Source of the DNA: Flavobacteriales bacterium | GTDB taxonomy: Bacteria; Bacteroidota; Bacteroidia; Flavobacteriales_D; Sanyastnellaceae | Length of the DNA stretch: 64,000 bases | Direction of reading: 5' to 3' | Assembly (NCBI GenBank): GCA_018402085.1 | Contig: JAGYJM010000002.1 | Span: 930,001-994,000, forward strand | Shown: positions 13,704 to 22,356 of the stretch, in pieces | Layout: each line of letters starts with the position of its first letter | Numbering within the stretch: position 1 is the first letter of the stretch | Translations under genes and position numbers: made by a program | Notes under the pieces: model-generated | The model's database searches: none | Seen by the model: only the letters and a program-made list of their open reading frames with translations | Told to the model about the DNA's origin: nothing

Positions 13704-13723
13704 CCTCCAATGCTTTTGCATTG
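13704..13723 (+). repeat. CATC/GATG-hairpin repeat (CAATGC stem)
   Basis: CAATGC-TTTT-GCATTG hairpin preceded by CTC instead of ATC. The same stem occurs at 14292, at the other edge of this spacer. Confidence 0.5.
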
Positions 13724-13799
13724 CATTGAAAAGAGCGCAAAACCAAGCTATGAGTATTACACTAATGGGGATATCGGGGTGAGAGGCATGGATGTTCGC

Positions 13800-13908
13800 A
13801 TTCGTAAAACAATATGTGTCATAGGTGAAGTATCCCTTTCGCCGTGTTGGTCTGCTTCCGAACTTAGCCACGTGGTGGCGGCGGGGGCGGGCCCGCCATC
13901 GGACGGGG
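13800..13908 (+). repeat. 109-bp direct repeat, copy 1
   Basis: Begins ATTCGTAAAACAATA and ends GGACGGGG. Identical to the copy at 14124-14232 except for one base (ATATGTGTC against ATACGTGTC). It includes a GC-rich block with a GGCGGG/CCCGCC self-complementary segment. The two copies are 324 bases apart, a multiple of three. Confidence 0.9.
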
Positions 13909-13922
13909 CGGAGTGGTTTATT

Positions 13923-13982
13923 GAGTATTGCAGCTCGAATAGTTCGTTCGTCGAGTATTGCGGCTCGAATAGTTTGTTCGTC
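13923..13982 (+). repeat. 30-bp tandem repeat, two copies
   Basis: Two adjacent 30-bp units starting GAGTATTGC and ending GTTCGTC, differing at two positions (CAG/CGG and TTC/TTT). They lie between the two copies of the 109-bp repeat. Confidence 0.85.
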
Positions 13983-14123
13983 ACCGCTCCAAAAATCGAT
14001 GGTTCACTTCATCGTCTAGATTCAGTTAATGATGATATCCACACCTCCAGAAAGGTTATTGGTCTTATGCTGCATGAAAGCATTTGTATTAGATGCGGTC
14101 ATTGGTATAAGCGTTTAACGGCG

Positions 14124-14232
14124 ATTCGTAAAACAATACGTGTCATAGGTGAAGTATCCCTTTCGCCGTGTTGGTCTGCTTCCGAACTTAGCCACGTGGT
14201 GGCGGCGGGGGCGGGCCCGCCATCGGACGGGG
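14124..14232 (+). repeat. 109-bp direct repeat, copy 2
   Basis: Second copy of the repeat at 13800-13908, with 108 of 109 bases identical by eye. The flanks differ: copy 1 continues CGGAGTGG and copy 2 continues AGTGG. Confidence 0.9.
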
Positions 14233-14291
14233 AGTGGTGCTGAAAGGCCGGAGTTTACGCCCAGCGCTCCATTTCAGCGCCGGTCTACGTC

Positions 14292-19753: not shown

Positions 19754-19836
19754 TGTTCCATGTTTGGTAGCGTTAAAGGTATCAACTCTTCAACTTTGCT
19801 GCGCTTTCTGCCATCTTTGCATTAAAATTGACCGCT

Positions 19837-20424
19837 ATGTTTCGTCCGGGTGACCGCGTACGCTTTCTGAATGATACAGGTGAAGCTACTGTTATTCAAA
19901 TGATTGATGCCACACAGGTACTCATTGAAGATGAAACCGGGTTTGATTATCCGTATCCGGCCAATGAGTTGATAAAAATTGAGAATCCCGCGAACGAACA
20001 TCAGGCATATAAGGCGAAGTCACCTGATTTTAGGGAGGTGATTGCGCGCAACGTAGATGAACGCGAGCTTGATGGTGCAAGCAAAGACTTTAAAACAAAG
20101 TACAAAGATGACAAGGCGGGGGGCGGACGTTACGGCGAAAAGCTCGAGGTAGACCTCCATATTCACGAGCTGATTGATCGTGATACGGGCTTAGATCCGC
20201 ATGATAAGCTGCAGATCCAGATGGAGCATTTCGAGCGCATGATGAAGCGTGCCGAGCAGCAGCGTATCGGCAAGGTGATTTTCATTCATGGGATCGGACA
20301 GGGTATTTTACGTAATGAGATTCGCAAAAACCTGGAAATGTATTATCCAAATGCGGAGTATTTCGATGCGAATTATCAGGAATATGGCTACGGTGCCACG
20401 GAGGTAAGGTTGCGGTTTAATTAG
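19837..20424 (+). CDS. DUF2027/Smr-domain protein
   Basis: Cytoplasmic protein of 195 residues. The N-terminal part is a small SH3-like barrel (FRPGDRVRFLNDTGEATVIQM); a charged linker leads to a C-terminal Smr domain (about residues 105-195) with the conserved VDLHIHEL and IFIHGIGQGILRNEI motifs. Smr domains bind or nick branched nucleic acids or cleave RNA. The MutS2 of this window lacks an Smr domain, so this separate protein could supply such a function; that is inference. The ATG was preferred over a TTG three codons upstream. The gene stands alone, followed by a repeat array. Confidence 0.85.
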   Translation: MFRPGDRVRFLNDTGEATVIQMIDATQVLIEDETGFDYPYPANELIKIENPANEHQAYKAKSPDFREVIARNVDERELDGASKDFKTKYKDDKAGGGRYGEKLEVDLHIHELIDRDTGLDPHDKLQIQMEHFERMMKRAEQQRIGKVIFIHGIGQGILRNEIRKNLEMYYPNAEYFDANYQEYGYGATEVRLRFN

Positions 20425-20427
20425 TTA

Positions 20428-20451
20428 GTCTGGAGTCGGGTGTCTGGAGTC
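20428..20451 (+). repeat. Short direct repeat GTCTGGAGTC, two copies
   Basis: Two copies of GTCTGGAGTC separated by four bases, just after the stop of the Smr-domain gene and before the hairpin-bounded tandem array. Confidence 0.6.
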
Positions 20452-20458
20452 AGGGGTG

Positions 20459-20778
20459 CAGCGCATATTTGCGCTGCTATACTCGAATAGGTGGCTCTTG
20501 TGTGGCGGCGGCTACTGCCGCCGGTCTGTTTTAGGCGCATACTGGAGTGTGCGCGAACTGGTAACAGCTACAGCCGCCGGTCTGTTGAAGGCGCACACTG
20601 GAGTGTGCGCGAACTGGTAACGGCTACCGCCGCCGGTCTGCTGAAGGCGCACACTGGAGTGTGCGCGAACTGGTAACGGCTACTGCCGCCGGTCTGTTTT
20701 AGGCGCACACTGGAGTGTGCGCGAACTGGTAACAGCTACTGCCGCCGGTCTGTTGAAGCGCAGCGCATACTTGCGCTG
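20459..20778. repeat. 56-bp tandem repeat array bracketed by matching hairpins
   Basis: The core CCGGTCTG recurs at 20521, 20577, 20633, 20689 and 20745, exactly 56 bases apart each time, giving four full units plus partial ends. Each unit carries the hairpin GCGCACACTGGAGTGTGCGC (one base varies in the first) followed by GAACTGGTAAC and a CCGCCGG segment. The array is bounded on the left by CAGCGCA-TATT-TGCGCTG (20459-20476) and on the right by CAGCGCA-TACT-TGCGCTG (20761-20778). Because 56 is not a multiple of three and units hit stops in each frame, it is not coding. There are no unique spacers, so it is not a CRISPR array. Confidence 0.9.
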
Positions 20779-20811
20779 CTTTGATGAAAATGACGGTTCA
20801 AGTGTGGCGGT

Positions 20812-21684
20812 TCAGCGCTCTCTCGGATCCACATAAGGTTTGCGCTTGCCTTCTTTGCCCATGGTCACATACACGTCGCTCTCGAAGGTCCACTTGTTTT
20901 TATCAAGTACGAAGGCATCGAAGGTGAGGTCGGGGCCCATGAAGGCCGGATTACGGCCCATGCCTGAGGTGCGCGGTGAAAGATGGTCGAATACAAAACG
21001 GTTATCTTTTTTGAAGTAGCGGAGTGAGGCGCTGACTTCTTCGGCATATTCAAAGATGAACCGTTTTAAACGTTCTTCAGGATGTTCGAATACATTGCCT
21101 CCCAGGCGGATGCCCTTGCGGGTGAACTCCATCACTTCAAGCACCTTCCGGTTGATGAGTCCATTCGCGCCATCCCAACCCAGCAGCATATAATAAGGTT
21201 TACGGCGATGCTTGACGTAGACAATATCGTAATAGAGAGCACCGAACCATTCATCCGGACGCAGGTAGCGGTTTTTGACATATTGCACGTCATCCGAATG
21301 GTCACGAAGTTCTTCCCAGTTGTAAATACCTTTTTTCTCATCTTCTTTCCAGAGAATGAAGCAGCCGTAGGCATGGGTCTGGTCTTCGAAAGGAACATTC
21401 CAGTTGAAGATGCGGAACTGCTCATCAGGTGAGGTCAGAATAGCCATGTACTTCACCTTATCAAAGGGGTAGTCGAAACAGCCGGCAGAGTTGACGGCCT
21501 CCTGAACGGTTTGCCGAAGTGAGTCGTGGCAGGCCCTTCTGATGTCGTCAGTAGCTGCAGTTCGTATTTGCTCCTGCAGGCCGATGATCCGCTTTTCAAG
21601 GGGCGCAAATTCAGACTGAGCAGTGGCAAAGGTGTTCCAGAACCACAAGGGAAGGGTGAGCAATGCAATGCAGTTTCTCATCAT
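20812..21684 (-). CDS. Exported protein of unknown function
   Basis: About 290 residues with a signal peptide (NCIALLTLPLWFWNTFATAQ), so secreted or periplasmic. The mature part opens with a helical segment (LEKRIIGLQEQIRTAATDDIRRACHDSL) and continues with a beta-rich region containing many aromatic residues (FRIFNWNVPFEDQTHAYG, YYMLLGWDGANG). The pattern resembles Bacteroidota proteins of unknown function that look like beta propeller fragments, but I cannot assign a family. The reading frame is open far upstream, but the tandem ATG codons chosen start the signal peptide. It is 25 bases downstream of the NTF2-like gene and probably co-transcribed with it. Confidence 0.75.
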   Translation of the reverse strand: MMRNCIALLTLPLWFWNTFATAQSEFAPLEKRIIGLQEQIRTAATDDIRRACHDSLRQTVQEAVNSAGCFDYPFDKVKYMAILTSPDEQFRIFNWNVPFEDQTHAYGCFILWKEDEKKGIYNWEELRDHSDDVQYVKNRYLRPDEWFGALYYDIVYVKHRRKPYYMLLGWDGANGLINRKVLEVMEFTRKGIRLGGNVFEHPEERLKRFIFEYAEEVSASLRYFKKDNRFVFDHLSPRTSGMGRNPAFMGPDLTFDAFVLDKNKWTFESDVYVTMGKEGKRKPYVDPRER

Positions 21685-21709: not shown

Positions 21710-22204
21710 TTAGTCTTCCGGGAGGTAACGATAGGGGATCGGTACGCCGTTGGTATCATTTGACCAGATAACGTTGCATATCCACCACCGGTCATTGTGC
21801 CATACAAGTTGATACGAATTGATTCCTCTATTGGTGGAGTTGCCGACCGTGGCCTCATAGGTTTGCCAAACATGGGCGATCCCGTTGTACTCGTCAATTT
21901 CTTTGCGCAGCTCTACTTCCACAATGGTGCGGTCAGCGCTATTGAGAAACAGGCGAATAAAGTCTTCCATGGCAAAATTCGTGGCACGTAGTCCCATGTT
22001 GTTGGCATCGCCCACTACGGTGAAATCGGCAGAAGCCATGAAAAGCCCGCGAAAGGTTTCCCAATCTTCGGTAGGAGCACTGATACAGCGGAGAACCTCT
22101 GAAACGCAACCCTCAACGGTGGTGGTATTGGAGTTCCACTCCTGGGCGAGTCCGTGGCTTACTGCCCAAAAGGGCAGGATGGCTGTGAGGATCCATTTTT
22201 TCAT
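21710..22204 (-). CDS. Exported NTF2/SnoaL-like protein
   Basis: A 164-residue protein with a signal peptide (KKWILTAILPFWAVSHGLAQ). The remainder has the length and pattern of an NTF2/SnoaL-fold domain: a helical start with W-ETFRGLF, then ADFTVVG, AMEDFIRLF, and long strands ending W-VYQLVWHNDRWWICNVIW-like. Such domains bind small ligands or catalyse simple reactions, but no catalytic residue set stands out. The chosen ATG begins the signal peptide; the frame is open upstream without a better start. Likely co-transcribed with the following exported protein. Confidence 0.75.
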   Translation of the reverse strand: MKKWILTAILPFWAVSHGLAQEWNSNTTTVEGCVSEVLRCISAPTEDWETFRGLFMASADFTVVGDANNMGLRATNFAMEDFIRLFLNSADRTIVEVELRKEIDEYNGIAHVWQTYEATVGNSTNRGINSYQLVWHNDRWWICNVIWSNDTNGVPIPYRYLPED

Positions 22205-22269
22205 GGGGTGAAGATACCGAAATGATCGAGGATCGGTGATGGTGGTGAGTTCACGATTTCTACTTAACG

Positions 22270-22289
22270 GCACACACTGCAGTGTGTGC
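22270..22289. repeat. Solitary copy of the tandem-array hairpin
   Basis: GCACACACTGCAGTGTGTGC, a perfect palindrome. It matches the hairpin of the 56-bp array at 17 of 20 bases, and two of the three differences form a compensating pair (G-C to A-T). Confidence 0.6.
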
Positions 22290-22356
22290 TTACAATTCCA
22301 TGTTACCGAGGTGTTCGTGACTTGACGGTTCACGGAAGGCTGGGAGGCCATCCCTT

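Follow-up and report, generated by a model that had tools for sequence, protein, structure and literature searches.

The hairpin array at positions 20511–20762 of the window (the whole stretch of DNA analysed, 64,000 nucleotides) is best explained as one site of a non-coding interspersed family resembling REP and REPIN elements, at which an inner unit has been amplified in tandem. We put the probability of this reading at roughly 0.7. The family consists of over a hundred scattered two-hairpin repeats in the same genome (G000), and the window array is one locally multiplied copy of them. It is likely a selfish element of the mobile, REP-like type and neither a gene nor a CRISPR. Each module spans ~67 nt and comprises a hairpin with a TNNT loop (H1), a spacer of 22–25 nt and a second hairpin (H2).

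The 56-base period with four complete units given in the preliminary description was borne out. Tandem Repeats Finder reported 4.5 copies with 92% matches, 0% indels and a score of 427, and the palindromes of a third hairpin, C, start at 20535, 20591, 20647 and 20703, in steps of exactly 56. The features of the locus are as follows.

19828–20424, plus strand: upstream convergent gene, Smr-domain protein (ORF; Pfam PF01713, 39 bits)
20425–20811, no strand: extra block between both stop codons, missing in the relatives G001, G002, G007 and G010
20425–20457, plus strand: G-rich heptad-like tract before H1, read in the sequence
20458–20477, plus strand: H1 hairpin GCAGCGCA-TATT-TGCGCTGC, the 5' hairpin of module 1
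20477–20499, plus strand: locus-specific spacer, 23 nt from the first base past the 7-bp stem of H1 to the H2 side
20502–20505, plus strand: GTGG, a foot of the GT[AG]G type immediately 5' of H2 (GT[AG]G criterion from an excerpt of PMC6006769)
20506–20523, plus strand: H2 hairpin CGGCGGC-TACT-GCCGCCG, class B
20511–20762, plus strand: 56-bp tandem array, hairpin C alternating with a shortened H2 (H2'), from Tandem Repeats Finder
20535–20554, plus strand: hairpin C, copy 1, one mismatch
20591–20610, plus strand: hairpin C, copy 2
20647–20666, plus strand: hairpin C, copy 3
20703–20722, plus strand: hairpin C, copy 4
20760–20779, plus strand: H1 hairpin of the second module, the right-hand bounding hairpin of the preliminary description
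20780–20810, plus strand: spacer of the second module and its first H2-side bases (GTGTGGCGG), ending before the H2 loop
20812–21897, minus strand: convergent gene downstream, without a Pfam family at E 0.001 (ORF; Pfam search)

Hairpin C reads GCGCACACTGGAGTGTGCGC in three of its four window copies, and copy 1 differs by one change. At loci L009–L012 the spacing is 57, against 56 in the window. The array had been described as enclosed by two matched hairpins. Both are present, with loops TATT at 20458–20477 and TACT at 20760–20779, but the right-hand one opens a second, truncated module, so that what looks like an enclosure is one module with a multiplied inner segment followed by another module. 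The second module was detected at 20760–20827 (36.5 bits, E 2.4e-7) by a covariance model whose training set excludes this copy; its H2 side breaks off at GTGTGGCGG (20802–20810). That the array is non-coding and not a CRISPR was supported; unlike those of a CRISPR, its units are contiguous and alike and carry no unique spacers between them. The accompanying statement that no spacers exist was mistaken, since the variable 23-nt spacer lies at 20477–20499.

Dispersal through the genome was directly observed. A search of the two-contig, 3.78-Mb genome with the 320-bp region turned up 53 matches, one of them the region itself; 39 relatives gave none. A pattern search placed H1 (CAGCGCATNNTTGCGCTG) exactly at 128 places in G000 and nowhere in 59 relatives, two congeners among them; the reversed H1 control pattern gave no matches. 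With up to one mismatch, hairpin C gave 45 and 50 hits on the two strands of G000, where a perfect palindrome counts on both, and none in the 59 relatives. The class-B H2 core pattern was absent from the GTDB genomes, a set from which the genome's own record may be left out. A lone relative of hairpin C (GGCACACACTGCAGTGTGTGC) stands at window position 22272 (C2:952272) without a module, within the ORF 21710–22351 (minus strand) and close to its 5' end.

These copies bear on the suggestion that the array is a local replication-slippage artefact with no further copies and no conservation in related strains. Tandem copying of 56 bp agrees with slippage, which may hold for the array itself, but the 53 matches and 128 H1 copies refute it for the element, and purely local slippage of no wider meaning has next to no chance of being right. 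As for conservation, none of the 59 relatives has the sequence, whereas both congeners share the architecture.

The order H1, 22–25 nt and H2 recurs in 29 class-B loci, found with a filter that admitted spacers of 18–28 nt. Other H2 classes follow H1 elsewhere, GGACGGC-TTAT-AGCCGTCC and GTAG-GGACGCGATTTATCGCGTCC being examples. Column identity (the sum of squared base frequencies) was calculated on an alignment of 40 of the 41 non-redundant modules, which omits 2072311 with its disrupted H2. The mean was 0.87 in the H1 stem, a value raised by the picking of modules with an H1 core, 0.75 for the H2 stem and 0.36 across spacer columns 20–40. Outside the module it was 0.34 over the 10 bases preceding H1, 0.35 over the 10 following H2 and 0.27–0.32 at greater distance (39 of the 41 modules for all flanks). 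The idea of a mobile cassette with defined ends therefore survives in altered form: the dispersed unit is not the interval between two H1 hairpins but the H1–spacer–H2 module, beyond both ends of which identity drops.

G-rich tracts precede other copies as well, 9 of 39 upstream 60-mers having at least seven GG runs, against 1.2% of random ones. Repeats of 7–9 bp (GGTTAGG, GGGAAACT, GATCGGG, GACCTATG) were seen beside modules (L009, L010, L034, L097–L100 and others) and elsewhere. G-rich heptads able to form quadruplexes are described for Xanthomonas and Nostoc in an excerpt of PMC4692102.

Structure is kept in the H1 and H2 stems, and sequence less so. A search of 864 kb gave 101 GCA-TNNT-TGC sites. 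The four outer positions are all complementary in 64 of these, where 0.39 would be expected, and the arms are CAGC in 40, CGCC in 11, GCGC in 10 and GGGC in 3, tandem copies counted. This count demands no outer pairing and partly meets the bias of the covariation analysis, whose 40 modules were selected for complementary stems. In those 40, paired cells reached 98.4% (84.3% shuffled), cells changed on both sides numbered 68 (18.6 shuffled) and the covariation score was 0.355 (0.101 shuffled), values that none of 500 shuffles reached. Structures slid along the same alignment pair in only 22–46% of cells. Two of the five measures were weak. Seven pairs were changed on both sides, against 5.6 shuffled (reached by 41 of 500 shuffles), and 12 further pair types occurred, against 10.0 (reached by 36 of 500). 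For class B alone (RNAalifold, 29 cores) there is hardly any variation in the hairpins, and the covariation term comes close to zero.

Placement was assessed in 864 kb of G000, which gives no unbiased genome estimate, as the block at 1.9–2.3 Mb was chosen as copy-rich. The 68 strong matches there (covariance-model score of at least 42 bits, 68 of 89 matches) make up 33 sites, of which 11 hold two or more modules. Thirty-one of the 33 sites lie outside ORFs of at least 150 aa, which cover 88% of the sequence. Neighbouring genes are unidirectional at 16 sites, convergent at 9 and divergent at 8, against 260, 82 and 79 background gaps; this shows no clear departure and speaks against a 3'-UTR role, by comparison of the counts. 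A corresponding orientation count on the enriched loci was blurred by spurious short ORFs and a false in-gene module (L027 2377198). Further hairpin families occur in the 864 kb (GGACGCCA, stem 42; GGACGCCT, stem 13; GGATGCGC, stem 11; CTCCCCTG, stem 8), among many kinds of palindrome.

Tandem arrays elsewhere have periods of 83, 100, 130, 117/124 and 211, and periods overall range from 56 to ~280 bp. Because the other arrays differ in period, the 56-bp unit is probably a stretch that happened to be copied and not a defined unit. Thirteen tandem modules with a period near 103 bp were seen at C2:1487617–1488923 of G000.

At the window site the two convergent genes are separated by an intergenic stretch of 387 bases. 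This extra block is missing in all four relatives compared (G001, G002, G007, G010), where the gene ends lie only a few bases apart. Protein identity of the upstream gene is 60–62% or 48% in the four (61% in G001 and G002), and that of the downstream gene 34–53%.

Modules are present in both congeners with other stems. The covariance model gave at least 85 matches in G000 (all 85 scored of 1343 candidates), 5 in G001 and 10 in G002; under stricter filters, with at most 85 scored candidates each, it gave none in 57 further genomes from this family and order. A congener copy reads, for example, GCGGCGCA..TGCGCCG followed by GTAG-GGACGCATGAAATGCGTCC. GTAG precedes H2 in all eight congener loci read (L158, L159, L161, L162, L167, L168, L171 and L175). 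Judged by these sequences, the module plan is common to the genus at least and its sequences are particular to each species, which is the pattern expected of REP families.

Several features liken the module to the repeats associated with RAYT (TnpAREP) enzymes. It is a short, mostly intergenic palindrome in high copy number (128 H1 copies; 31 of 33 sites). A partial likeness is the GT[AG]G motif: 19 of the 41 non-redundant modules have it no more than 2 nt from the H2 stem, where ~2% would be expected by chance. That count includes the window copy (GTGG) and 2072311; the other 22 modules lack the foot. Canonical REPs are marked by GT[AG]G at the hairpin foot according to an excerpt of PMC6006769, which also describes Bacteroidetes enzyme subclasses with canonical or atypical hairpins and lists GT[AG]G REPs for an enzyme subclass found in this phylum. 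For Bacteroidetes repeats an excerpt of PMC3733652 lists CGTC, not GTAG. Clusters repeated in tandem with flanking DNA, a further likeness, are described in PMC3733652. Two traits differ: no enzyme gene with adjoining modules was found, and an unrelated H1 stands at a fixed distance before H2.

REPINs of Pseudomonas fluorescens are presented in an excerpt of PMC3116915 as a proposed replicative unit with two conserved ends, a less conserved spacer and compensatory changes, the length and hairpin capacity of the spacer being called critical. The module likewise has a spacer of fixed length and weak conservation. Most REPINs consist of a single REP in two inverted copies, which together form one hairpin, whereas in the module different H1 and H2 each fold separately, and RNAalifold predicted no internal spacer stem on the 29 class-B cores. 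The family may work like a REPIN but lacks the inverted copies, and no cognate gene flanked by the repeat was found. Units described in part of PMC3733652 for P. putida and P. fluorescens come close by description, not by sequence: degenerate GTAG REP units joined to unrelated stem-loops, in hundreds of copies and beside some RAYT genes. No flanked transposase gene was found here.

BIMEs are mosaics of several hairpin types, reiterated in tandem and mostly intergenic, and the modules resemble them in all three respects. They differ in orientation, since REPs alternate in opposite orientations in BIMEs (PMC2817692, in excerpt). REP counts for some Bacteroidota are tabulated by RepRanger (PMC12306157, in excerpt). 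A literature search confined to open-licence papers, available in part, yielded no description of the two-hairpin plan.

A single Y1_Tnp gene was found in the genome, at C2:1309048–1309395. It falls short of the curated cut-offs of both NCBIfam models (IS200, 41.2 against 55; REP transposase, 26.3 against 80) and exceeds that of Pfam. No module or tagged hairpin occurs in its 3.3-kb locus, so the adjoining repeat typical of a cognate RAYT was not seen. A module array stands ~2.2 kb from the gene (L056, 28–853) with other genes between, and at one site per ~26 kb in the examined blocks we take this proximity as chance. Relatives gave 44 Y1 matches in 20 genomes; the Y1 loci of 19 (L061–L079, one per genome, that of G002 not among them) contain no module. 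With neither the 3.3-kb locus nor these 19 carrying a module, a Y1 gene adjoining the family was rejected.

Other short palindromes were seen at some of these Y1 genes. In G001 (L067, ~1260–2230), CCCCTCTGGGG and TGCCGTAGGCA lie on both sides of the gene, and a CCCCTCTGGGG palindrome turns up in G002 as well, between modules (L175). In G038, from another family of the order, a dense array of GTAG-tagged hairpins (GTAGCCACGGGTTTTAACCCGTGG, GTAGTCCTTGGGC and others) stands at the Y1 gene locus (L068).

Hairpins acting in RNA, as terminators, attenuators or mRNA stabilisers, would also suit some of these observations. The fold of the 351-nt strand beat 100 of 100 dinucleotide shuffles (z −4.3), the paired stem changes fit RNA equally well, and the window site lies between convergent genes. 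TTTT occurs in the next 12 bases after 20 of 93 H1 copies examined, but not after the other 73. The 33 sites show no clear 3'-end bias, judged by the counts. No Rfam family was found: the window contains only a tRNA elsewhere, and 20400–20900 gave two chance matches far below gathering scores. A structured RNA or transcript element is on this evidence unlikely. Somewhat less likely again is a protein-binding chromosomal array serving the nucleoid, gyrase or segregation, such as has been suggested for the BIMEs of E. coli. The near-invariant class-B hairpins, intergenic placement and arrays of many modules would fit such a role, but the H1 sequence is missing from 59 relatives, both congeners included, and is therefore not a shared core site; array periods ranging from 56 to ~280 bp argue against it as well. 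Both kinds of function had been raised in the preliminary description, and the hairpins themselves are the one piece of positive evidence for either. A MITE of a cut-and-paste (DDE) transposon would likewise be dispersed, non-coding and mostly intergenic, with identity dropping at both ends, but in the modules read the two ends do not repeat each other in inverted form, as the terminal repeats of a MITE would, and we consider this origin very improbable.

The spacer raises a different possibility, a guide-like element in which 22–25 variable nucleotides between constant hairpins serve as a functional address. Between loci the spacer keeps its length and has near-random sequence. In eight full H1-H2-C-H2' elements (28 pairs) spacer identity was 61% against 56% shuffled, and the other parts were far more alike (H1 96%, H2 98%, C 89%, H2' 93%, the other two linkers 87% and 92%); this set includes the near-duplicates L010 and L011 and leaves out the window copy, which did not match the pattern used. 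A conserved length with near-random sequence would fit an address, but matches between spacers and their own flanks were near chance on the two strands (of 29 spacers, 0 on one strand and 3 on the other passed the 5% level; flanks of other loci served as control), and the guide hypothesis was rejected on this result. The strongest flank match, at L009, probably reflects a second copy missed by the masking. Spacers are visibly related in several pairs of loci, and drift under a length constraint fits this better than programmed addresses. We hold a guide function to be extremely doubtful, a shade more so than a MITE.

Returning to the reading as a REP-like family, the following course of events would account for the window site. 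A module with an attached C hairpin stands between two convergent genes. Its inner C and H2' segment would then have been copied in tandem to ~4.5 units, presumably by slippage or unequal recombination, with a second, truncated module following the array. Mobilisation of the modules by a Y1 (IS200-like) transposase is what we infer: such an HUH enzyme would recognise single-stranded hairpins in trans, as proposed for RAYTs with REPs. The enzyme might act in trans, have been lost or be of another kind.

A broader and more tentative proposal, which we think could be true but would not bet on, is that the modules form a genus-specific superfamily of mobile two-hairpin elements. Co-varying hairpins would switch stems between species, a near-free spacer would keep a fixed length, and the mover enzyme would read single-strand structure, spacing and foot, not sequence. 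The unit would then be a REP-like hetero-dimer, unlike REPINs. REP-like elements of a Flavobacteriales genus would here have an architecture unlike that of REPINs, with two unlike hairpins at a fixed distance and a hypervariable spacer, and three species carry the one module plan with different stems. If the proposed enzyme exists, recognition by sequence, structure or spacing becomes directly testable, and the arrays of differing periods offer a natural set for studying tandem amplification.

Elsewhere in the window a 30-bp direct duplication was seen at 13923–13982, and the translation of the ORF at 13710–14243 repeats a stretch of ~35 residues.
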